Positions 9,911 to 30,068 of a DNA stretch of 64,000 nt are shown one piece after another. The position numbers were made by a program, and so were the translations under genes. Below the pieces are notes generated by a model that was given only the letters and a program-made list of their open reading frames with translations, did not search any database and was not told the DNA's origin. The stretch lies in NCBI RefSeq assembly GCF_000721265.1, contig NZ_JOFZ01000003.1, positions 310,001 through 374,000 of the forward strand, read 5' to 3'. The stretch's first letter is position 1, and the number at the start of each line of letters is the position of its first letter. This DNA comes from Streptomyces sp. NRRL F-5126. GTDB taxonomy: Bacteria > Actinomycetota > Actinomycetes > Streptomycetales > Streptomycetaceae.

Positions 9911-11673
9911 CGCGGCCCCCCGGTGCCCGCGCCCTTGCCCGGGCCCTCGGCCGTGCCGGCCTCTGCCGCCGGGCGTGGGAAGAGTCCGGTGGGGCGGCCC
10001 CTGCCGTTCCAGTTGAGGAGGTTGACGCGGCCGAGCAGCCCGCCGGCCGCGGCCGGCTGCTCGCCGTGTCCGCCTCCGCAGCCCGTCCCCGCGCCCGCGC
10101 CCGCGGGTACGAGCGGCGGCGCGTGGAAGGTGTCCGGATCGAGCGGGCCGCCGGGCATCATGCCGGGTCCGCCCGCCCCGTCGAGGCTGCACCCGCCACC
10201 GTGGCCGTCGCCGCCTGCCGCCGGGTCGGTGTACCCGGTGGGGATCACGTAGCGCTCCTCGTACTTGGCGAGCGCCAGCAACCGGTACATGGACCGCATC
10301 GAGCGCTCGTCCATGCCGACCGAGCGTGCGATCGCCGGGTCCTGCTCCTCGCCCAGGTTGACGCGCCGCATGTGGGAGCGCATCGCGGCGAGCCGGCACA
10401 GTGCGGCCTCCACGGGCGCGGTGTCGCCCGCCGTGAAGAGTTCGGCGAGGTATTCGAGCGGGATGCGCAGGGAGCCGATGGCGCCGAACAGGCTGGCCGG
10501 GTCCTCGCCGTCGTGTCCCGACGAGGTGAGCGCGTCGACCACGGGCGACAGCGGCGGCACGTACCAGACCATCGGCATCGTGCGGTACTCCGGGTGCAGC
10601 GGCAGCGCGACGCGGTAGTCGGTGATGAGGGCGCGCACGGGCGAGCGGCGCGCGGCCTCGACCCAGTCGTGCGGGATGCCGGACTCCTCGGCGTCGCGCG
10701 CCACTTCGGGGTCCCCGGGGTCGAGGAAGCAGCCGAGCTGTGCCTCGTACAGGTCCTGCTCGTCGGTGGTGGCCGCCGCCTCGCCGACCTTGTCGGGGTC
10801 GTAGAGCATCACACCGAGGTAGCGGAGCCTGCCGACGCAGGTCTCGGAGCAGACGGTGGGCTCCCCCGCCTCGATGCGCGGGTAGCAGAAGGTGCACTTC
10901 TCGGCCTTGCCGGTGGCGTGGTTGAAGTACACCTTCTTGTACGGGCAGCCGCTGACGCACATCCGCCAGCCCCGGCAGCGGTCCTGGTCGACAAGGACGA
11001 TGCCGTCCTCGACGCGCTTGTACAGCGCGCCGGAAGGACACACCGCGACGCAGGCGGGGTTGAGGCAGTGCTCGCAGATGCGCGGCAGGTAGAACATGAA
11101 CGCCTGCTCGTACTCCAGGCGGACCTTGTCGCTCATCTTCCGCAGCACCGGGTCGGCGGCGAGCTGCTCGGGGCCGCCGCCGAGGTCGTCGTCCCAGTTC
11201 GGGCCCCAAGTGACGTCGGCGGGCGCGCCGTCGATCAGGGAGCGCGGGCGCGCGGTGGGCAGGTCGTCGCCGAGCGGGGCGGTGGTCAGGTTCTCGTAGT
11301 CGTACGTCCAGGGCTGGTAGTAGTCGTCGAGGGTGGGCAGTTCGGGGTTGGCGAACAGGCGCGCGAGGCGGCGCGCCCTGCCGCCTGTGCGCGGCACGAG
11401 ACGGCCGTGCTTGAGTTCCCAGCCGCCGCGCCACCTGTCCTGGTCCTCGTGCCCGCGCGGGTAGCCCTGGCCCGGGCGGGTCTCGACGTTGTTGAACCAC
11501 GCGTACTCGGTGCCGGTGCGGTTGGTCCACGTCTGCTTGCACGTGACGGAGCAGGTGTGGCAGCCGATGCACTTGTCGAGGTTCATCACCATGGCGACCT
11601 GGGCCATGACCCGGCGCGGCCGCGGGGGGCGTCCGGTGTGCTGCCGGGTGCGTCGGCTCTTGCTGCGAGGCAT
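9907..11673 (-). CDS. narH: nitrate reductase beta subunit NarH
   Basis: Cytoplasmic iron-sulfur electron-transfer subunit. The four cysteine groups expected for three 4Fe-4S clusters and one 3Fe-4S cluster are present: KCIGCHTCSVTCKQTW, CEHCLNPACVAVCPSG, CRGWRMCVSGCP (Trp replaces a Cys at the 3Fe-4S site, as is normal for NarH) and KCTFCY...CSETC. The ATG at 11673 is one base past the narG stop and is used here. It adds 21 basic residues before MAQVAMVMNLDKC, so the ATG at 11610 is an alternative. At 588 aa the protein is long: roughly the last 90 residues are a Gly/Pro-rich stretch with GGGCSLDG and GTGCGGGHG, which is not part of the standard fold. Confidence 0.94.
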   Translation of the reverse strand: MPRSKSRRTRQHTGRPPRPRRVMAQVAMVMNLDKCIGCHTCSVTCKQTWTNRTGTEYAWFNNVETRPGQGYPRGHEDQDRWRGGWELKHGRLVPRTGGRARRLARLFANPELPTLDDYYQPWTYDYENLTTAPLGDDLPTARPRSLIDGAPADVTWGPNWDDDLGGGPEQLAADPVLRKMSDKVRLEYEQAFMFYLPRICEHCLNPACVAVCPSGALYKRVEDGIVLVDQDRCRGWRMCVSGCPYKKVYFNHATGKAEKCTFCYPRIEAGEPTVCSETCVGRLRYLGVMLYDPDKVGEAAATTDEQDLYEAQLGCFLDPGDPEVARDAEESGIPHDWVEAARRSPVRALITDYRVALPLHPEYRTMPMVWYVPPLSPVVDALTSSGHDGEDPASLFGAIGSLRIPLEYLAELFTAGDTAPVEAALCRLAAMRSHMRRVNLGEEQDPAIARSVGMDERSMRSMYRLLALAKYEERYVIPTGYTDPAAGGDGHGGGCSLDGAGGPGMMPGGPLDPDTFHAPPLVPAGAGAGTGCGGGHGEQPAAAGGLLGRVNLLNWNGRGRPTGLFPRPAAEAGTAEGPGKGAGTGGPR

Positions 11674-21627: not shown

Positions 21628-22359
21628 GTGACCACAGAGCCGAACGACACACCGCGCGACGACCCGAAGGACGAGGCCCCGCAGTTCGTCCTGCCGCTGG
21701 TGCTGCGACTGGAACGGACGGCACCGCCGTCCCGCACGGACGCGCTGGAGACGGCGGCGCGCGCCGTGCTGACGATTCTCTCCGACGAGCGGTCGCTCGG
21801 CGGGGGCGAGTGGGCCGCCCGCATGCGCGACTGGCAGGACGCGCGCATCAGGAAGGTGGTGCGCAGGGCGCGCGGCGCGGAGTGGCGCAGGGCCGCGGCA
21901 CTGCCCGGCGTCACGGTGACCGGCACGTGCGCCGAGAGCCCCGCCGAGGTGCGGGTGCACCCGCCTGTTCCGCTGGACGGCTGGCCGAAGGACCTCGCGC
22001 GCCTCCAGGTCTCGGGCACGGAGCTGCCCGAGGCCGCAAAACCGCCCGCGCCGCCGGCCCCCGGCGTGGCGGTGCTCTGGTTCAACCCCGACCTGGAGAT
22101 GTCCGCGGGCAAGGCGTGCGCCCAGGCGGGGCACGGTGCGCAGCTGGCCTGGTGGGCGCTGCCCGAGGCGGACAGGAAGGCATGGCGCGAGAGCGGCTTC
22201 ACGCTGGCCGCGCGAGTCGCCTCGCGCGAGAGGTGGCGGGACCTGCAACCGAGCGGGCTGCCCGTGGTCGAGGATGCCGGTTTCACGGAGATCGCCCCGG
22301 GCAGCGCGACGGTGATCGCCGACCACCCGGCCCTGAGGGCCGCGGCACGCGGGGCCTGA
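21628..22359 (+). CDS. peptidyl-tRNA hydrolase PTH2 family protein
   Basis: A 243-residue protein whose C-terminal 110 residues match the archaeal/eukaryotic PTH2 fold: VAVLWFNPDLEMSAGKACAQ followed by AGHGAQLAWWALPEADRKAW, with the conserved K-xx-AQ-xx-H substrate-binding residues. PTH2 enzymes cleave peptidyl-tRNA so tRNA can be reused. The N-terminal half (about 1-120) is an added domain without a clear match. The start is GTG at 21628, 60 bases from the divergent AIM24 start. Bacteria normally rely on Pth1, so this is an extra or specialised enzyme. Confidence 0.85.
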   Translation: MTTEPNDTPRDDPKDEAPQFVLPLVLRLERTAPPSRTDALETAARAVLTILSDERSLGGGEWAARMRDWQDARIRKVVRRARGAEWRRAAALPGVTVTGTCAESPAEVRVHPPVPLDGWPKDLARLQVSGTELPEAAKPPAPPAPGVAVLWFNPDLEMSAGKACAQAGHGAQLAWWALPEADRKAWRESGFTLAARVASRERWRDLQPSGLPVVEDAGFTEIAPGSATVIADHPALRAAARGA

Positions 22360-22377: not shown

Positions 22378-22890
22378 CTACGGCGTGCACACGCCGGTGG
22401 CGGTGCCGGTCTTCGCGGTGCGGTGGACGGTCACCTTGACCACGTGCGGACTCGTTGCCTCCGCCGCGCTCACCGCGTCGGCGGCCGTGCACACCAATTG
22501 GCGCATGGCGGGCCGGGACGCCCAGTATCCGGCGGGTGCGAACGCCTGGGCCGAATCCGTCCCGCGGGCCGTGACGACAGCGGGCAGGTGAGGGGCGTAG
22601 CTGATCAGGCCACGGGCGCGTTCGGCGGTGTCGGGTCCCTGGGCGAGCTGCCGCAGGGCCGCCCCGACGGGGTCGGGGCCGCGGTAGGGGCGCGAGACGC
22701 GTTCGAGTCCCTGGGACGAGTAGAAGTAGACGTGGACGGCGGCTGCGGGACGGCTGGGCGCGACATGCGCGGCCACGGCCGGTGATCCGGCCGGCGCCGG
22801 ACCCGCGTCGCCGACGGAGCACGCGCTCAGGGGCCCCAGGAGCAGCAGCGCGGCTACGGTGGCCGGCAGGCCTGCACGGTGGTGTTTCAT
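22378..22890 (-). CDS. GerMN-like lipoprotein B
   Basis: A 170-residue exported lipoprotein. The signal peptide ends in the lipobox LSAC (C24), followed by a short Ala/Pro linker. A GerMN-like domain begins at VHVYFYSSQGLERVSRP and includes ALRQLAQGPDTAERARGL and MRQLVCTAADAV. It ends with GVCTP, so two cysteines could form a disulfide outside the membrane. It is a clear paralogue of the lipoprotein encoded at 25050. The ATG overlaps the kinase stop (ATGA), so it is coupled to the two-component genes. In MtrAB-LpqB a GerMN lipoprotein influences the sensor kinase, which suggests a similar role here. Confidence 0.82.
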   Translation of the reverse strand: MKHHRAGLPATVAALLLLGPLSACSVGDAGPAPAGSPAVAAHVAPSRPAAAVHVYFYSSQGLERVSRPYRGPDPVGAALRQLAQGPDTAERARGLISYAPHLPAVVTARGTDSAQAFAPAGYWASRPAMRQLVCTAADAVSAAEATSPHVVKVTVHRTAKTGTATGVCTP

Positions 22891-24323
22891 CGCGGCTCGC
22901 GCGGCATCGTGAAGGTGAACACCGCTCCTCCTTCCGGTGCGTTGGCCGCGGTGAGGGTGCCGCCGTGCAGGCGGGCGTTCTCCGCGGCTATGGCCAGTCC
23001 GAGGCCGCTGCCTCCGCTGCGCGTGCGGGCACCGTCCCCCTTGGTGAAGCGGTCGAAGACGTGCGGCAGTACCTCGCGGGGGATGCCGGGGCCGTCGTCG
23101 CGGACGGTGATCGCGATGGTGCCGGACGACTCGTGGGCGTGGATGCTCACCCGCGCGCGCGGACCGCCGTGGCGCAGGGCGTTGCCGACGAGGTTGGCGA
23201 GGACGACGTCGACGCGGCGCGGATCGAGGCGGACGCGCAGCCCCTCGGGGGTGTCGACGTCCACCCGGCCCTGCCAGTGCCGCAGAGCGAGTGTCTTGCG
23301 GACGAGTTCGCCGACGTCGATCTCGTCGGTGTTGAGCCGGGCGGCGCCCGCGTCGAACCGGGAGATCTCCATCAAATCCTCGACCATGTGGGCGAGTTTG
23401 CGTGTCTCGCCGGCCACCAGGCTGAGGGCCTCCGCGGTCTCCGGTGCGAGGTGGCCGGACGCGGCGTCGTGGTCGACGATGCCTGTGACGGCGGTCATCG
23501 CGGCGAGCGGGGTGCGCAGTTCGTGGGAGACGTCGGCGGCGAACCGGCGTGCCTTGGCCTCCATGCCGCGCAAGGCGGCGGCGTCGGCCTGCAGCGTCGC
23601 GGCCATGGCGTTGAAGGTGCGGCCCAGTTCGGCGATCTCGTCGTGGCCGGTGACGTCGATGCGGGTGGAGAGGGCGCCGGTGGCCATGGTCTCGGCGGCC
23701 GCGCGCAGCCTGCTGACCGGGCGCAGGAAGCGGCGGGCGGCCAGCAGGGCGAGCACGGCGGAGGCGGCGACGACGGGCAGGACGCCGGCCCGGGCGGCGG
23801 CGATCAGCGAGGCGACGTCCTGCTGCTGGGGTTCGAGGGAGAAGGCCGCATAGACGACGAGGCCCGAGGGCGTCTGCGGGTGGCCGGCGGAGGTGACGGG
23901 CAGGGCGATGGCGAGGCGGGGCCGCCCGTCGTCGTGGAAGCGCTGCGTCAGCGCCGTGCTGGCCGATGCCGCGGCTGCACGCAGGTGGGCCGGCAGTACG
24001 GGGGCGGGGTCGTGGGCGGCCGTCGGCGGGCCGCCGCGGTAGGCGGCGGCGGTGCGCCAGTCGCGGGCGCCGCCCGCACGGTCGAGTTGCACGACGAGAT
24101 CGTGCAGGTCGGACGCGGCGGGCCGGGCAGGCAGGTCGGGGACGAGTGAGTCGACCTGGGCCCGCAGGTCGTGCACGGCGCTGTCCTGGGCGCGCCCGAC
24201 TATCGCGTCGCGCGCCTTGTGGAAGGTCAGGGCGGCCGTGGTCAGCGCGGAGAGCGCGGAGAGCAGGACGAAGGTGACGACCAGCCGGGTGCGCAGGCCG
24301 TGCGGCAGGAGCCGGCGCTTCAC
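22887..24323 (-). CDS. HAMP-domain sensor histidine kinase
   Basis: Membrane sensor kinase of 478 aa. A first membrane helix (about 12-33) and an extracytoplasmic sensor of roughly 140 residues are followed by a second helix near VLPVVAASAVLALLAARRFL. A HAMP linker comes next, then the H-box VSHELRTPLAAM. The N-box NLVGNALRHGG and the G-boxes DDGPGIP and GSGLGLAIAAEN follow. The GTG start overlaps the response-regulator stop (GTGA). The kinase is flanked by two GerMN-like lipoprotein genes in the same transcription direction, suggesting an envelope signal. The stimulus is unknown. Confidence 0.93.
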   Translation of the reverse strand: MKRRLLPHGLRTRLVVTFVLLSALSALTTAALTFHKARDAIVGRAQDSAVHDLRAQVDSLVPDLPARPAASDLHDLVVQLDRAGGARDWRTAAAYRGGPPTAAHDPAPVLPAHLRAAAASASTALTQRFHDDGRPRLAIALPVTSAGHPQTPSGLVVYAAFSLEPQQQDVASLIAAARAGVLPVVAASAVLALLAARRFLRPVSRLRAAAETMATGALSTRIDVTGHDEIAELGRTFNAMAATLQADAAALRGMEAKARRFAADVSHELRTPLAAMTAVTGIVDHDAASGHLAPETAEALSLVAGETRKLAHMVEDLMEISRFDAGAARLNTDEIDVGELVRKTLALRHWQGRVDVDTPEGLRVRLDPRRVDVVLANLVGNALRHGGPRARVSIHAHESSGTIAITVRDDGPGIPREVLPHVFDRFTKGDGARTRSGGSGLGLAIAAENARLHGGTLTAANAPEGGAVFTFTMPREPR

Positions 24324-25012
24324 AGCGGGCCGAAGCGGTAGCCGAAGCCCCGCACTGTCTGGACGTAGTGCGGCCGGCGCGGGTCGTCCTCGATCTTGGC
24401 CCGCAGGCGCATCACGCACGCGTCGACGAGCCTGAAGTCGCCGTAGTAGCTGTGCTCCCAGACCTCTTCGAGCAGCTGCTGGCGGCCGAAGGTCCGCTCG
24501 GGCCAGGCCGACAGGAACAACAGCAGCTTGAGCTCCGAGGGCGCGAGCGCGAGGTCCTCACCGCGCTTGCGTACGCTCAGGGCCGCGCGGTCGATCTCCA
24601 GGTCCGCGTAGGTGGCGCGCTCGTCGCCCGCCCGGGCATCGGGCTGTGAGGGGGCCAGGCGGCGCAGGACGGCGCGCATGCGGGCTTCGATGACCTCGTC
24701 GCTCGCGGGTTTGACGATGTAGTCGTCGGCGCCCGCCTCCAGGCCGACGACCACGTCGATGTCGTCGCTGCGTGCCGAGAGGACGACGATGGGCACCTGA
24801 CTGGTTCCGCGGACACGCCGGCAGACCTCGAGGCCGCTCATGCCGGGCAGCATCAGGTCGAGCAGCACGATGTCCGGCGGCGCGGCGGCGAGCGCCTCCA
24901 GACCGTCCTCCCCCGTGCCGACCGCCTCCGTCTCGTGGCCGCGGCGGTGCAGCCCGAGCGTGACGCCCCTGCGGACGGCGGGGTCGTCCTCGATCAGCAG
25001 GACTCGTGCCAT
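24320..25012 (-). CDS. OmpR/PhoB-family response regulator
   Basis: DNA-binding regulator of 230 aa. The receiver begins MARVLLIEDDPAVRR, with the acidic pair at the start. The phosphorylated aspartate lies in IVLLDLMLPGMSG, the switch serine in IVVLSARSD and the lysine in YIVKPAS. The C-terminal winged helix includes LAPSELKLLLFLSAWP and VDACVMRLRAKIEDDPRRPHY (residues of the recognition helix). I chose the ATG at 25012 rather than an upstream GTG at 25042. The stop overlaps the kinase start, forming a standard regulator-kinase pair. Confidence 0.94.
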   Translation of the reverse strand: MARVLLIEDDPAVRRGVTLGLHRRGHETEAVGTGEDGLEALAAAPPDIVLLDLMLPGMSGLEVCRRVRGTSQVPIVVLSARSDDIDVVVGLEAGADDYIVKPASDEVIEARMRAVLRRLAPSQPDARAGDERATYADLEIDRAALSVRKRGEDLALAPSELKLLLFLSAWPERTFGRQQLLEEVWEHSYYGDFRLVDACVMRLRAKIEDDPRRPHYVQTVRGFGYRFGPL

Positions 25013-25049
25013 GGGTGCTGCCTCGCTTTCGTCGTACTCCACCGGTGCG

Positions 25050-25619
25050 TCAGCGCGCCCGGCCGCCGGTGTTCAGCGGGGCGGCGGCGCCGCTTCCGTC
25101 GCACAGCACGGGCCAGGCCTCCCCCCGCAGACCTGATTCGTGGATCCGCACGACCACGTCCTGCGGCCGCTCGCCGCCGGGGATGCCCGGCGCGGCGGCC
25201 GCCGTGCACACGAGCTGGCTGACCGCCGTCCTGTCCAGCTCCGAGACCAGCCACGGCAGGTACAGGTCGACCGCTCCCCGCGACGCCCGGGCCCTGACCC
25301 GGTGAGCGCCCGAGGGCAGTGCGGTGACCAGGCCTCGTGCGCGCTCCGACGGTGCGGGTCCGGCCAGGAGCTCGTCGAGGGCACCCTGTGGCCCGGCGCC
25401 CTCCGGCGCGGTACGGGCGACGGGCCATATGCCGCGTGACGTGAGGAAATACACGCGGAACACATGCGCCTGCGCCTCGACCCGCTGCCCCCGGGCCGGC
25501 GCGCCTGCCCTGCTGGGTCCTGTGGCGGTGACGCCGCAGCCGGCGAGCAGCGCGGCCGCCAGGACCCACACGGCGGGGGCCGCCGGGATCCGCGGCCCGT
25601 GCCACGGAAGGTGTCTCAC
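25050..25619 (-). CDS. GerMN-like lipoprotein A
   Basis: A 189-residue lipoprotein with a signal peptide ending in LLAGC (C28). Its domain repeats the pattern of the lipoprotein at 22378: HVFRVYFLTSRGIWPVAR, LDELLAGPAPSERARGL, VSQLVCTAAAAPG and a second cysteine in PVLCDGSG. The two share the VYF-TS-G, GP-ERARGL and QLVCTAA motifs and are evidently paralogues. The GTG at 25619 is preceded by AAGGAGG at an ideal distance, favouring it over an upstream ATG. The response-regulator gene follows 37 bases after the stop. The role is inferred to be signal input or envelope protection linked to the kinase. Confidence 0.82.
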   Translation of the reverse strand: MRHLPWHGPRIPAAPAVWVLAAALLAGCGVTATGPSRAGAPARGQRVEAQAHVFRVYFLTSRGIWPVARTAPEGAGPQGALDELLAGPAPSERARGLVTALPSGAHRVRARASRGAVDLYLPWLVSELDRTAVSQLVCTAAAAPGIPGGERPQDVVVRIHESGLRGEAWPVLCDGSGAAAPLNTGGRAR

Positions 25620-25706
25620 GCACCCGCCCTCCTTTGCCGCGCCCCTCGCCACGCGTCTGCCGCGCGGCTGTCCGCTCTCCGCTGTCCTGGAGGTGCCGAG
25701 CGGGGC

Positions 25707-26951
25707 CTACGGTTCCATCAGCCGGTGCACGTCCACCGACCCGGCTCCCAGCGTGGGCTGCGGTATCGCCGCCCACACCGCGGCCGCCACCAATGCCGTC
25801 GCGCCGAGCACGGCGAGCCCGCGGCGGCTGGTGGCCCACCGGGCCCGGAACCGCACCGGGTCCTCGACCAGCTTCTTCGACAGGGCGGCCGCGGCAAGGG
25901 ACAGCGCGATCAGCACGGCCGTACGGGGCGGGCCGCCGAAGCCGAGGACGTCCGCGGGAAGCAGCAGGTACACCGGCCAGTGCCACAGGTACAGGCCGTA
26001 GGAGAGCTCTCCCAACCGGCGCGGCACCACGCTGCCGAGCGCGCGCCCTGTGCGCCCGTCGGGCACGGCGGCGAGCGTGGCGATCAGCACGGCGGCGACG
26101 AGCGAGTGCAGGAACATCCCGCCCTGGAACAGCCCGGGCGCGTGCTGCCCGTCGGTGAGCGCCCAGGACGCCACCAGGCCGCACGCCAGGACGGCGCACA
26201 GCAGGTCCGCAGCCTGCCGCGGCACGCGGGCGAACCCCGCCCTCACCGGCCGGGTGGCGACCGCGGCACCCAGCAGCAGCGAGAACGCCCGCGTGTCGGT
26301 GCCCTCGTAGACCCGCGTGGTGTCCACCGCAGTGTCGAACATGATCATCAACGCGAGGGAGACGCAGGCGCCCACCACGGCGAGAGAGGCCACCCGGCGC
26401 TCGCCGTGGCGTCCGCGGCCGGCCAACAGGACCACCACCGGCCAGGCCAGATAGAACTGCCACTCCACGGCGATGCTCCACAAATGGGAGAACAGGCGCG
26501 TGTCCGAGGCGTTCCAGTAGCCGACCTGTTCGGCGATGAAGTGCCAGTTGACCGCCTGTGCGGCGGCCCATGGCGCGTCGTCGAGAGCGAAGGCGAGCAG
26601 GCTCGGGGAGCCGAACACCCAGGCCAGGAGCAGAGTGGCCACGCCCATGACGACCAGGGCCGGCAGCAGGCGCCGCGCCCTGCGTGCCCAGAATGCGGCG
26701 AGGTCGATCCCGCCGGCCCGCCTCGTCTCGGCCAGCAGCAGCCCGGTGATCAGGAAGCCCGACAGCACGAAGAACAGGTCGACGCCGAGGAAGCCGCCGC
26801 GCAGGTAGCCCGCGTGGAAGAGCAGCACCGCCGCGACGGCCAGCCCCCGAAGGCCGTCGAGCGGGGCGAGGTGCGGGCGGCCCGCCCGTGGGGTGGGGAG
26901 CGGGACGGGCGAGGGATGTGAGCGGCCGGGCGCCGCACGGTGCTGGGCCAT
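25707..26951 (-). CDS. OafA/YrhL-type membrane acyltransferase (AT3)
   Basis: Integral membrane acyltransferase of 414 aa with about ten hydrophobic helices. LDGLRGLAVAAVLLFHAGYL holds the conserved Arg and catalytic His of the acyltransferase-3 family. LGVDLFFVLSGFLITGLLL and the arginine-rich RRARRLLP loop are equally typical, as is WSIAVEWQFYLAWP. Such proteins move acetyl groups across the membrane onto cell-wall or exported glycans. The SGNH lipoprotein gene ends three bases before this start, so the pair looks like a split OatA (AT3 plus SGNH). The acceptor is unknown. Confidence 0.9.
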   Translation of the reverse strand: MAQHRAAPGRSHPSPVPLPTPRAGRPHLAPLDGLRGLAVAAVLLFHAGYLRGGFLGVDLFFVLSGFLITGLLLAETRRAGGIDLAAFWARRARRLLPALVVMGVATLLLAWVFGSPSLLAFALDDAPWAAAQAVNWHFIAEQVGYWNASDTRLFSHLWSIAVEWQFYLAWPVVVLLAGRGRHGERRVASLAVVGACVSLALMIMFDTAVDTTRVYEGTDTRAFSLLLGAAVATRPVRAGFARVPRQAADLLCAVLACGLVASWALTDGQHAPGLFQGGMFLHSLVAAVLIATLAAVPDGRTGRALGSVVPRRLGELSYGLYLWHWPVYLLLPADVLGFGGPPRTAVLIALSLAAAALSKKLVEDPVRFRARWATSRRGLAVLGATALVAAAVWAAIPQPTLGAGSVDVHRLMEP

Positions 26952-26954
26952 CGG

Positions 26955-27782
26955 TCAGCTGCAGCCGAGCTTGGCGTACCTCTGGTTGGACACCCATGTC
27001 CCCGTGGCCCACTCGTTCGGCGGGGCCGGGGTGAACCCGTATCGCTTGCCGAGCCGCTCGGTGAACCACTTGGCGAAGGCCGCGGACCCCTGCTGGCAGG
27101 AGTGGATGCCGTCGGGCGCCCGCTGGGCCTTGGCGGCGCCGCTGTCCGTGCCCCACAGCGCCGAGGCGTCGGCGAAGGCCACCTTCGCGCCACCGGCGCC
27201 GGCGACCTTGCCGGCGGCCTTCGGAGCGCTCTCGATCTGTGCCGCGTGCTTCTTGTAGAAGTCGTCCAGCTTGAACGGCGGAGCGGAGACGATGACGAGG
27301 TCGGCGCCGGCGTGCCCGGCCGCCTTGGCCAGCTTCTCGTACGAGGCGCGCTGCTGCTCGGGCGTGCCCCAGTCGTAGGTGGTGATCTGGTAGGCGAGCA
27401 CGTCGGGCCGGTAGGAGGCGAGGTCCTTGCGAAGTTGCTTCCACGTCGACCGTGCGATCGGAAGGGACATCTTGTCGCCCTCGACGATGGTGCCGCCGCC
27501 GTCGGACGAGTCGTTCTTGAACCCCACGCCGCTCGCCTTCAGCGCCGCGCCGAGTGGCAGCGCCTCGACGCCTGCGATGGAGTCACCCAGCCACAGGACC
27601 TTCCTGTCCTTGGCGGGGAGCGATGCGGACGGCGCGGGTTCGGACCGCACGCCGGATCCGGCGGAGCCGCCGCACCCGGTCAGGACGGCGGCCGCGGCCA
27701 CGGCGAGTGCGGCCGCGACGGCGACGGGACGCCGGCGGTGCGTGCGGGTCAGGGAGCCACGGGGGCTGGTTTCGTTCTGCAT
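26955..27782 (-). CDS. SGNH-family hydrolase/acetyltransferase lipoprotein
   Basis: A 275-residue extracytoplasmic lipoprotein. The signal peptide AVAAALAVAAAAVLTGC has its lipobox cysteine at about 37. The SGNH block I is VLWLGDSIAG, with nucleophile serine at about 68, and the Asp-His pair is in DGIHSCQQG. Free-standing and AT3-fused SGNH domains complete O-acetyl transfer to glycans or remove it. The ATG at 27782 follows GAGG closely. It is the first gene of a six-gene same-strand run, separated from the beta-oxidation genes by a strong terminator. Confidence 0.88.
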   Translation of the reverse strand: MQNETSPRGSLTRTHRRRPVAVAAALAVAAAAVLTGCGGSAGSGVRSEPAPSASLPAKDRKVLWLGDSIAGVEALPLGAALKASGVGFKNDSSDGGGTIVEGDKMSLPIARSTWKQLRKDLASYRPDVLAYQITTYDWGTPEQQRASYEKLAKAAGHAGADLVIVSAPPFKLDDFYKKHAAQIESAPKAAGKVAGAGGAKVAFADASALWGTDSGAAKAQRAPDGIHSCQQGSAAFAKWFTERLGKRYGFTPAPPNEWATGTWVSNQRYAKLGCS

Positions 27783-27884
27783 GGCCTCAGCACACCAGCG
27801 GAAAACGCCATCAGGACCCGTCGTCATACGCTCATCACACAACGAGAAAGCGGCCGTCATGCCCGAGCACCGTCCGGCACGGGA

Positions 27885-27924
27885 AAGGGCGGGGTACGGG
27901 CGGCCGCGCCCGTACCCCGCCCTT
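27885..27924 (-). terminator. strong terminator after the beta-oxidation operon
   Basis: A perfect 18-base stem (27885-27902 with 27907-27924) carries the four-base loop GCCG. It starts eight bases past the stop of the multifunctional enzyme gene. It insulates that operon from the envelope gene block that begins at 27782. Confidence 0.88.
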
Positions 27925-27932
27925 GCTGTCGG

Positions 27933-30068
27933 CTACGCCGTCGCCGGCACGCTCGCGACGCCCGGCGGCAGGAAGCGCCGTCCGAGCACCCGCTCGGACA
28001 CGCCCTCACGGTCCAGGTAGGGCGTCACTCCGCCCAGGTGGAACGGCCAGCCGGCGCCGGTGATCAGGCACAGGTCGATGTCCTGCGCCTCTGCGACAAC
28101 GCCGTCGTCGAGCATCAGCCCGATCTCCTCGGCGACCGCGTCGAGGACGCGGTCCCGCACCTGCTCCTGCGTCAGGACCCGGTCCCCCTGCCTCATCAGG
28201 GCGAGGACGTCGGGGTCGAGTTCGGGCTTGCCCGAGTCGTGGACGTAGAAGCCGCGCTTGCCGGCCTCCACGACCGCCCGCAGGTTCTGAGACACGGTGA
28301 ACCGGTCGGGGAAGGCCGCGTGCAGCGTCTCGGAGACGTGCAGGCCGATCGCGGGGCCGACCAGTTCGAGCAGGACGAGCGGCGACATCGGCAGGCCGAG
28401 CGGCTCGACGGCGCGCTCCGCGACATCGACCGGCGTGCCCTCGTCGATGACGTTCTGGATCTCGCCCATGAAGCGGGTCAGCACCCGGTTGACGACGAAC
28501 GCCGGCGCGTCCTTGACGAGCACGGCCGTCTTGCGGAGCTTCTTCGCCACGGCGAACGCCGTGGCGAGCGACGCGTCGTCCGTGCGCTCGCCGCGTACGA
28601 CCTCCAGCAGCGGCAGCACGGCGACCGGGTTGAAGAAGTGGAAGCCGACGACCCGCTCGGGGTGGGCGAGGCCGGCCGCCATCTCGCCGACCGACAGGGA
28701 CGACGTGTTGGTGGCGAGGATCGCCGTCTCCGGGACGACCGCCTCCACCTCGGCGAACACCTGCTGCTTGACGCCCATCTCCTCGAACACGGCCTCGATC
28801 ACGAAGTCCGCGTCGGAGAACCCCTCGGCCTTGTCGAGCACTCCGGTGACGAGACCCTTGAGGCGGTTGGCCGTGTCCTGGTCGATCCTGCCCTTGCCGA
28901 GCAGCTTGTCGACCTCCGCGTGCACGTAGCCGACGCCCTTGTCGATGCGCTCCTGGTCGACGTCCGTGAGGACGACGGGCACCTGGAGGCGGCGCACGAA
29001 CAGCAGCGCCAGCTGGGACGCCATCAGGCCCGCACCGACCACGCCGACCTTGTTCACGGGGCGCGCGAGGTTCTTGTCCGGCGCGCCGGCGGGCCGCTTG
29101 GCCCGTCCCTGGACGAGGTTGAAGGCGTAGATGCCGGAGCGCAGCTCGCCGCTCATCACCAGGTCGGCGAGCGCCTCGGTCTCCGCTTCGAACCCGGCCG
29201 CCACATCGCCGTCCTTGACGCGGGCGATGATGTCGAGCGCCCGGTAGGCGCCGGGGGCCGCGCCGTGCACCTTGGAGTCGGCGACGGCCCTGCCCCACTC
29301 GACGGCCTGGTCCCACGCCTCGCCGCGGTCGATCTCCGGGCGTACGACCTCCAGTTCGCCCTTGAGGACGGCGGCGGTCCAGACGAGGGACTGCTCCAGG
29401 AAGTCCGCGGCCTCGAAGATCGCGTCGGCGATGCCGAGCTCGAAGACCTGCTCGCCCTTGAGCTGGCGGTTCTGGTTGAGGGCGTTCTCGATGATGACGT
29501 TGACGGCGGGGCCGGCGCCGATCAGGTTCGGCAGCAGGGTGCAGCCGCCCCAGCCGGGCACCAGGCCGAGGAAGACCTCGGGGAAGGAGAACGCCGCGAT
29601 CGACGAGGAGACGGTGCGGTACTGGCAGTGCAGGCCGATCTCGACGCCGCCGCCCATTGCCGCGCCGTTGTAGTAGGCGAAGGCCGGGACGGCGATGGCG
29701 CCGAGCCGCGCGAACACGTCGTGGCCCGCCTGGCCGATGGCGGCCGCCTCGTCCCTGCTGCGCAGCAGCCCGACGCCCTTGAGGTCGGCGCCGACGGCGA
29801 AGACGAACGGCTTGCCCGTGACGCCGACGCCCACGATGGTGCCGTCCGCGGCCTCGCGCTCGACCTGGTCGATCGCCGCGTCGATGTTCGCGAGCGACTG
29901 CGGCCCGAAGCTGGTGGGCTTCGTGTGGTCGAAGCCGTTGTCCAGCGTGATCAGCGCGAAGCGCCCGGCGTCGGCCGGCAGGTCGAGGTGGCGCACGTGC
30001 GCCTGGGTGACGACCTCGTCGGGGAAGACCTCGGCCGCGCCCTTCAGCAGTTCGGCGATGTTGCTCAC
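27933..30068 (-). CDS. multifunctional fatty-acid oxidation enzyme (enoyl-CoA hydratase / 3-hydroxyacyl-CoA dehydrogenase)
   Basis: FadB/FadJ-like alpha subunit of 711 aa. The N-terminal crotonase domain (about 1-300) has VFAVGADLKG, YNGAAMGGGVEIGL and PEVFLGLVPGWGG. The NAD-binding dehydrogenase domain starts at KVGVVGAGLMASQLALLF and carries the catalytic His in VVGFHFFNPV, followed by two C-terminal dehydrogenase helices domains. Together they hydrate enoyl-CoA and oxidise 3-hydroxyacyl-CoA. The GTG start overlaps the thiolase stop (GTGA), so the thiolase that completes the cycle is co-translated. The usual GxGxMG is GAGLMAS here. Confidence 0.93.
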   Translation of the reverse strand: MSNIAELLKGAAEVFPDEVVTQAHVRHLDLPADAGRFALITLDNGFDHTKPTSFGPQSLANIDAAIDQVEREAADGTIVGVGVTGKPFVFAVGADLKGVGLLRSRDEAAAIGQAGHDVFARLGAIAVPAFAYYNGAAMGGGVEIGLHCQYRTVSSSIAAFSFPEVFLGLVPGWGGCTLLPNLIGAGPAVNVIIENALNQNRQLKGEQVFELGIADAIFEAADFLEQSLVWTAAVLKGELEVVRPEIDRGEAWDQAVEWGRAVADSKVHGAAPGAYRALDIIARVKDGDVAAGFEAETEALADLVMSGELRSGIYAFNLVQGRAKRPAGAPDKNLARPVNKVGVVGAGLMASQLALLFVRRLQVPVVLTDVDQERIDKGVGYVHAEVDKLLGKGRIDQDTANRLKGLVTGVLDKAEGFSDADFVIEAVFEEMGVKQQVFAEVEAVVPETAILATNTSSLSVGEMAAGLAHPERVVGFHFFNPVAVLPLLEVVRGERTDDASLATAFAVAKKLRKTAVLVKDAPAFVVNRVLTRFMGEIQNVIDEGTPVDVAERAVEPLGLPMSPLVLLELVGPAIGLHVSETLHAAFPDRFTVSQNLRAVVEAGKRGFYVHDSGKPELDPDVLALMRQGDRVLTQEQVRDRVLDAVAEEIGLMLDDGVVAEAQDIDLCLITGAGWPFHLGGVTPYLDREGVSERVLGRRFLPPGVASVPATA

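Follow-up and report, generated by a model that had tools for sequence, protein, structure and literature searches.

A predicted AfsQ-type acylation switch with a split AT3/SGNH acyltransferase pair in Streptomyces sp. NRRL F-5126

Two major arrangements for moving acyl groups onto polymers across the membrane have been described: an MBOAT membrane protein working with a separate SGNH protein, or an AT3 membrane protein fused to an SGNH domain (PMC12148441; this and the other papers cited here are used in excerpt). PatA/PatB belongs to the first kind and OatA and OafB to the second. A tyrosine carries the acyl group in OatA (PMC12148441), and in fused AT3-SGNH proteins an eleventh helix places the SGNH domain outside (PMC9558356, PMC9833829). 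Whether AT3-only proteins need a separate SGNH partner is stated as an open question (PMC9833829, PMC9558356). Among two-component systems of Streptomyces, AfsQ1-AfsQ2-AfsQ3 (SCO4907-4906-4905) with SigQ has a lipoprotein, AfsQ3, which lies downstream of the kinase AfsQ2 and is proposed to modulate it (PMC9739842, PMC6593405). AfsQ1 is reported to act on sigQ and not directly on its own operon, and its published box is GTnAC-n6-GTnAC, with an 11-bp period (PMC6988585). Here we describe a block of six genes in a stretch of 64,000 nucleotides of Streptomyces sp. NRRL F-5126 (contig NZ_JOFZ01000003.1, positions 310,001 to 374,000; this whole stretch is called the window), in which both themes come together. 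The genes encode, in order, an SGNH lipoprotein, an AT3 acyltransferase, a lipoprotein of GerMN type (A), an OmpR-family response regulator, a HAMP sensor histidine kinase and a second GerMN lipoprotein (B).

We think it probable that this block is a dedicated and self-contained AfsQ-type acylation switch with a split AT3/SGNH acyltransferase as its output. The kinase, together with one or two GerMN lipoproteins on the outer face, would read the state of the envelope and phosphorylate the OmpR-type regulator, which would then control all six genes of the operon, its own among them; the signal and the sign of regulation likewise belong to the proposal. AT3 would take the acyl group, probably an acetyl, of a cytoplasmic acyl-CoA and carry it through the membrane. 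The SGNH lipoprotein, docked near the conserved extracytoplasmic tail of AT3, would pass it through Ser68 to a glycan outside, most likely peptidoglycan or another wall polymer. The reading is built on gene content, conserved linkage, co-occurrence, a predicted operator, folds and invariant catalytic residues.

Linkage was examined in a genus sample of 392 genomes. With a threshold of E <= 1e-80, an AT3 orthologue was found in 26 of them (weakest match E 8.9e-132), and all 26 places, the window included, were inspected. The SGNH gene adjoins AT3 in 25 loci, and the remaining one, L100, lies at a contig end; the window SGNH shares 88% identity with one from S. montanisoli, and relatives of it are also annotated in S. 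venezuelae and S. sioyaensis. The regulator-kinase-lipoprotein unit adjoins the SGNH-AT3 pair in 21 of the 26 genomes, and it does so in three layouts of seven genomes each: co-directional with a lipoprotein gene between AT3 and regulator, as in the window; co-directional with a lipoprotein gene only after the kinase; and with SGNH-AT3 divergent from the regulator. The coupling of SGNH-AT3 to the two-component unit is strongly supported.

In a tree of 80 kinases, all 21 linked kinases fall in one clade of 27 rows with support of 100/100. The five genomes in which the pair stands apart from the regulator and kinase all carry a kinase of the same clade elsewhere in the genome: four (L061, L062, L123, L124) are in the 27-row clade, and the fifth (G337, L272) joins it in a second tree (clade support 100), made by a quick method after 16 rows of the first tree were dropped and 28 new rows added. 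It means that all 26 AT3 genomes have a kinase of that clade. Conversely, 35 genus genomes without AT3 have a kinase at E <= 1e-130, all of which were placed in the trees (18 in the first, 17 in the second), and only two of these kinases (G219, G374) fall in the linked-kinase clade; AT3-less kinases were collected down to E 1.1e-125 (<= 1e-112 had been sought), and partial kinases like that of L061 may be missed. Fisher's test of AT3 against clade kinase gives 1.3e-38, treating genomes as independent though they are related. In the first sample 61 of 61 genomes have some match at E <= 1e-90. Spearman coefficients of pairwise identities are 0.50-0.72, and kinase-AT3 (0.52) is no stronger than kinase-regulator (0.55), so these values were not used as evidence.

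G219 and G374 have a kinase-lipoprotein pair of the same clade (L126, L127), without an adjacent regulator of this type and without an AT3 orthologue, and perhaps represent a decaying or re-wired system. The kinase of L110 (G106) is in two pieces in different frames and that of L103 (G325) matches only in part, from damage or sequencing error.

Upstream of SGNH there is a predicted tandem operator, RTGAS-n17-RTGA-n7-RTGAC, whose half-sites at 0, 22 and 33 keep an 11-bp phase, which is usual for sites of OmpR-family regulators. This is the one well-conserved block common to the SGNH upstream regions, with a mean information of 1.16 bits/base in the block against 0.32 upstream and 0.63 downstream. 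It matches at 14/14 positions in 23 of 25 loci and at 13/14 in the other two. The distance from its start to that of SGNH is 78-79 bases in 23 loci (78 in the window) and 91-93 bases in two. A perfect operator occurs once in the 7.18-Mb host genome (99.92% complete), at the SGNH gene of this block; if one mismatch is allowed there are 15 further places, and 4 for a reversed control pattern. Random 160-bp pieces of the same loci held a perfect site in 12/5000 cases, with the true sites left in. The loci total 1.43 Mb and contain 36 perfect sites, of which 23 lie at SGNH, three at separated regulators (L061, L062, L124) and ten in a sister kinase clade, with none elsewhere.

The operator goes with the genes. 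Where SGNH-AT3 and the regulator are apart, it is perfect at SGNH in 5/5 genomes and perfect at the regulator in 4/5 (L061, L062, L124 and L272, the last one 89 bases before the regulator match). Four divergent loci (L111, L114, L115, L120) have a single perfect block for SGNH and regulator together, while in L105, L117 and L119, the remaining three, a second copy belongs to the regulator, with 12, 13 and 13 of 14. Co-directional regulators have no operator of their own (8-11 of 14). An operator common to these loci adds to the evidence of joint control, and it is very likely, in our view, that the six genes function together and are controlled together.

The strict AfsQ1 box GTnAC-n6-GTnAC was present upstream of SGNH in 0 of 25 loci, and this absence led the search to the RTGA unit. 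In unit and period the predicted operator fits the published box, and the AfsQ-like promoters of L003 and L072 carry TGTCACAG repeats. Binding of the regulator to the operator at 27860-27823 is likely. Other kinase clades (L036, L037, L125, L128-L138; L038-L041, L139) have variant repeats, ATGA-n7-GTAAC and ATGAG-n6-GTGAC, upstream of the regulator, which may possibly form a series of related operators.

The SGNH and AT3 proteins are encoded by two genes 3 bases apart, not as one polypeptide. AT3 has PF01757 at residues 31-355 with 112.4 bits (gathering score 31), and the core residues H46, R90, R91, R93, R94 and E163 are invariant in 12/12 orthologues. Tyrosines 145, 167, 215, 318 and 321 are also conserved in all 12, and one of them could carry the acyl group, by analogy with OatA. 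Hydropathy shows one more hydrophobic helix (378-396) after the Pfam domain, which is preceded but not followed by positive charge. It leads into a tail of the pattern P-x-P / GA / VD / L, in which P397, P399, G402, A403, V406, D407 and L411 are invariant in the same 12 orthologues. We infer that this AT3 is a split form and that its tail would be the docking site for the SGNH lipoprotein.

The SGNH protein was aligned with 35 chosen relatives of 119 listed, and 36/36 rows match PF19040 (E <= 0.01), which models AT3-fused SGNH domains; 25 of these rows also match DUF459, which is the PatB family (PMC9487903). It has the fold of the SGNH superfamily with Ser, Asp and His, and PatB is the best match in the fold comparison. 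A PDB sequence search gave no match at the thresholds used for SGNH, the SGNH profile or the AT3 profile. With OatA and OafB the pair shares an AT3 domain followed by a further helix and an SGNH protein of the same Pfam family, but here these are two separate genes and the SGNH protein is a lipoprotein. PatA/PatB likewise combines a membrane acyltransferase with a separate outside SGNH protein, but its membrane partner is MBOAT and not AT3. An AT3-only protein, WecH, is reported to work with the separate SGNH protein PatB (PMC9558356), but that pairing was made in the laboratory, is not a natural gene pair and has no dedicated regulator. Acyl transfer by a split AT3/SGNH pair is likely.

The kinase has hydrophobic helices at about 14-32 and 173-191 by hydropathy, which flank a sensor of about 140 residues. 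The recognition region of the regulator is nearly identical to that of AfsQ1-like regulators. Lipoproteins A and B match only GerMN, without the Gmad1 propeller, and in a tree of 50 chosen rows each forms a clade with support of 100/99, though the branching of A to B is weakly supported (61/70). In a PDB sequence search lipoprotein A and the lipoprotein B profile (alignment of 35 chosen relatives of 63 listed) had only matches at E >= 0.6, which were taken as chance. Of 80 kinase loci, 73 have a lipoprotein relative no more than 1 kb downstream of the kinase, and four of the other seven have one between AT3 and regulator. A is the type kept in 11/11 loci with a lipoprotein in this "between" position (the window and ten others); B was found, among the loci examined, in the window, L034, L100, S. 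sioyaensis and N. spiralis. An earlier reading of this DNA, made from sequence only, described the two lipoproteins as GerMN-like, paralogous and doubled; the fold and the relationship were borne out, and the doubling is true of the window and of only part of the family. By position and fold, the modulation proposed for AfsQ3 may extend to lipoproteins A and B.

The sequence-only reading also compared the block with MtrAB-LpqB. Both have an OmpR regulator, a HAMP kinase and a GerMN lipoprotein, but LpqB has a Gmad1 propeller besides GerMN, and the host genome has MtrAB-LpqB separately, with a propeller-bearing LpqB at L004:2586-4688. The nearest relative is instead AfsQ1/Q2/Q3, which has the same regulator-kinase-lipoprotein order, nearly the same recognition region, a lipoprotein gene downstream of the kinase (lipoprotein B here) and an 11-bp-period operator at a neighbouring target gene (PMC6988585). 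The block differs from AfsQ in its kinase clade (44% identity), in having no sigma factor and in its target, SGNH-AT3. Identity with MtrAB was rejected by scores below the NCBIfam cut-offs (MtrA 230 of 300 bits, MtrB 283 of 450), and so was identity with CseABC-SigE (CseB 253 of 350, CseC 122 of 700). The block is not AfsQ itself either: its kinase is outside the AfsQ2-like clade (L003, L071-L073; 100/100) and the sigma factor gene is missing. The second-best kinase of the host genome (44%) is at L003 and has a regulator, a lipoprotein and a divergent sigma factor gene (9972-10799) beside it, the AfsQ layout; by this layout we take L003 and L071-L073 to be AfsQ-like. The layout is given in PMC9739842.

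Outside the genus sample, a scan of named genomes gave at least 80 AT3 loci, 35 of which were examined for neighbours (samples overlap: L158 = G093, L159 = G100, L162 = G584). Among the matches listed, 19 loci have E <= 3e-72 (L155-L173); SGNH is present in 19/19 and regulator plus kinase in 13/19. All six genes and the operator are found in S. sioyaensis and Nonomuraea spiralis, and linkage to regulator and kinase also in N. ceibae, Spongiactinospora rosea, Streptomyces sp. ADI96-02, two Actinoallomurus, Phytoactinopolyspora, Catenulispora, two Saccharopolyspora, Lentzea and Phycicoccus. L170 (Promicromonospora) has a regulator without a kinase, and five loci have neither (L158, which is one of the genomes with the genes apart, L166 and L171-L173). 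A new gene order, SGNH divergent from the regulator and AT3 convergent beyond the kinase end, is seen in seven of nine distant loci (L160-L164, L167-L170). SGNH is absent from the 16 weaker named AT3 loci (L174-L189). A class sample of 345 genomes has six outside the genus with AT3 at E <= 1e-85 (next match 2e-69), with SGNH near in 6/6 and regulator plus kinase near in 4/6. Loci at 38-45% identity (13 opened of 27 such genomes in this sample) did not show the full set, and one of them, L244, has a weak SGNH match. The pair and the kinase block are together in most AT3 genomes of the genus sample (21 of 26) and of the class sample outside the genus (4 of 6), and not apart in most, which the sequence-only reading had named as evidence against its proposal.

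The ten extra perfect operators belong to a 19-row sister kinase clade without AT3. All ten lie 164-213 bases before homologues of one protein, which in L044 is an L,D-transpeptidase (PF17964, PF03734); examples are L044:4494 (-), L051:13213 (+) and L054:13043 (+), with seven further loci. The transpeptidase-like gene starts about 3 kb from the regulator in three loci measured. Of the other nine sister-clade loci, five have the gene but no perfect site and four do not show the gene. These sites suggest that related AfsQ-like systems may drive other envelope enzymes.

Several observations weigh against the switch proposed here. SGNH-AT3 is away from regulator and kinase in 5 of 26 genus genomes (L102, L107, L112, L113, L116), two of the six class-sample loci are without them, and one further Streptomyces (G638, L248) has a more distant SGNH-AT3 pair without the kinase. 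Among the regulators apart, that of L123 keeps only part of the operator (10/14). Distant families have a changed unit, RCGACA-n5-RCGACA, again of 11-bp period, which 8 of 17 loci have upstream of SGNH and a ninth has in a near form; the other eight have no RCGACA unit there, and both strands of the distant loci hold 15 exact matches in all. Since AfsQ1 is reported not to control its own operon directly, autoregulation here is not a given, and the counts and the Fisher value overstate independence, as the genomes in the samples are related. The genes that are apart, together with the pleiotropic nature of AfsQ1 (PMC9739842), would suit another explanation: chance or common descent put the six genes side by side, and the regulator is of a global AfsQ-like kind whose main targets are other genes. 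That is very improbable in our view, as the linkage withstands rearrangement into three layouts and is found again in several families, the operator stays with the genes where they are separated, and the host genome has one perfect operator.

On the enzyme side, the SGNH fold matches that come next to PatB are esterases of almost equal Z, and by eye an Asn seems to be missing from block III (YQITTYDW), where classical SGNH enzymes have one. Many SGNH enzymes are esterases, and the lipoprotein might be a de-acylase which removes the acyl group added by AT3, like Ape1 beside PatA/PatB, so that the pair would tune acylation and not form one relay. This is unlikely given that every SGNH row matches the model of AT3-fused domains, that SGNH and AT3 occur together in all genus loci except the one at a contig end, and that AT3 shares with fused AT3-SGNH proteins a further helix towards the C-terminus (PMC9558356). 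A secreted small molecule, a lipid or an exopolysaccharide as acceptor, with a kinase that responds to that product or to an antibiotic, is a less probable alternative: stand-alone AT3 proteins of Streptomyces acylate macrolides (PMC9558356, PMC9833829), and none of the six genes names the acceptor. Against it, the flanks of the two loci opened (L034, L035) differ from each other, an outward position is predicted for both SGNH and the lipoproteins, and the sister kinase clade has the same operator before a wall enzyme, the L,D-transpeptidase. We lean towards the wall as acceptor and towards the lipoproteins as co-sensors.

The six genes are present at the positions claimed in the sequence-only reading, and the set is conserved across genomes (Table 1). 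That reading took them as one unit, and the 87-base gap between AT3 and lipoprotein A (25707-25619) has no terminator-like structure. Upstream, a strong hairpin divides the block from the neighbouring dehydrogenase gene; the fold of 27875-27935 has -43.7 kcal/mol (z -5.4), though the hairpin was absent from the terminator scan output. A promoter scan gave no match. Mechanical open reading frame calling starts the SGNH gene at an ATG inside the operator (27860), which is 26 codons too early. At the 3' end, a gene of peptidyl-tRNA hydrolase 2 type (21628-22359, +) converges on the block and bounds it. The neighbours are these two genes, and a sigma factor gene is not beside the regulator.

Table 1. 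Features of the six-gene block and its upstream region (window positions)
Feature	Position	Strand	Remarks
SGNH lipoprotein	26955..27782	-	275 amino acids; predicted extracytoplasmic acyl-transfer partner of AT3; invariant Ser68, D224, H227
AT3 membrane acyltransferase	25707..26951	-	414 amino acids; PF01757, further hydrophobic helix and invariant tail
Lipoprotein A, GerMN-like	25050..25619	-	PF10646 at cut-off; tree clade 100/99
OmpR-family response regulator	24320..25012	-	PF00072 and PF00486; AfsQ1-like recognition region RLVDACVMRLRAK
HAMP sensor histidine kinase	22887..24323	-	PF00672, PF00512, PF02518
Lipoprotein B, GerMN fold	22378..22890	-	start overlaps kinase stop
Hairpin	27885..27924	-	after upstream 3-hydroxyacyl-CoA dehydrogenase gene; divides that gene from the six-gene block
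Predicted response-regulator operator	27823..27860	-	RTGAC, RTGA, RTGAC half-sites at 0, 22, 33; 14/14 match

An envelope sensor and an acylating enzyme are also joined in the sigV-rsiV-oatA operon of Bacillus, which has positive feedback (PMC5014341), but control there is by anti-sigma and sigma factor and here by a two-component system. In the literature searched (titles and abstract openings), the six-gene combination and a natural separate SGNH partner for AT3 were not found described. All parts are of known kinds; what we did not find in print is their combination and the natural split AT3/SGNH pair. We put forward, tentatively, that the block could be a third natural arrangement of trans-membrane polymer acylation, with a docking-tail AT3 and a separate SGNH lipoprotein under their own two-component system with GerMN co-sensors, and that it could belong to a wider AfsQ-like family whose members use 11-bp-phased operators for different envelope enzymes. 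A natural split pair with its own switch bears on the open question whether AT3-only proteins need a separate partner, and because the locus is present in several named, culturable actinomycetes, this question can be put to the test with deletion mutants. Such a pair would further point to an inducible acylation system in Streptomyces and to a function for AfsQ3-type lipoproteins.

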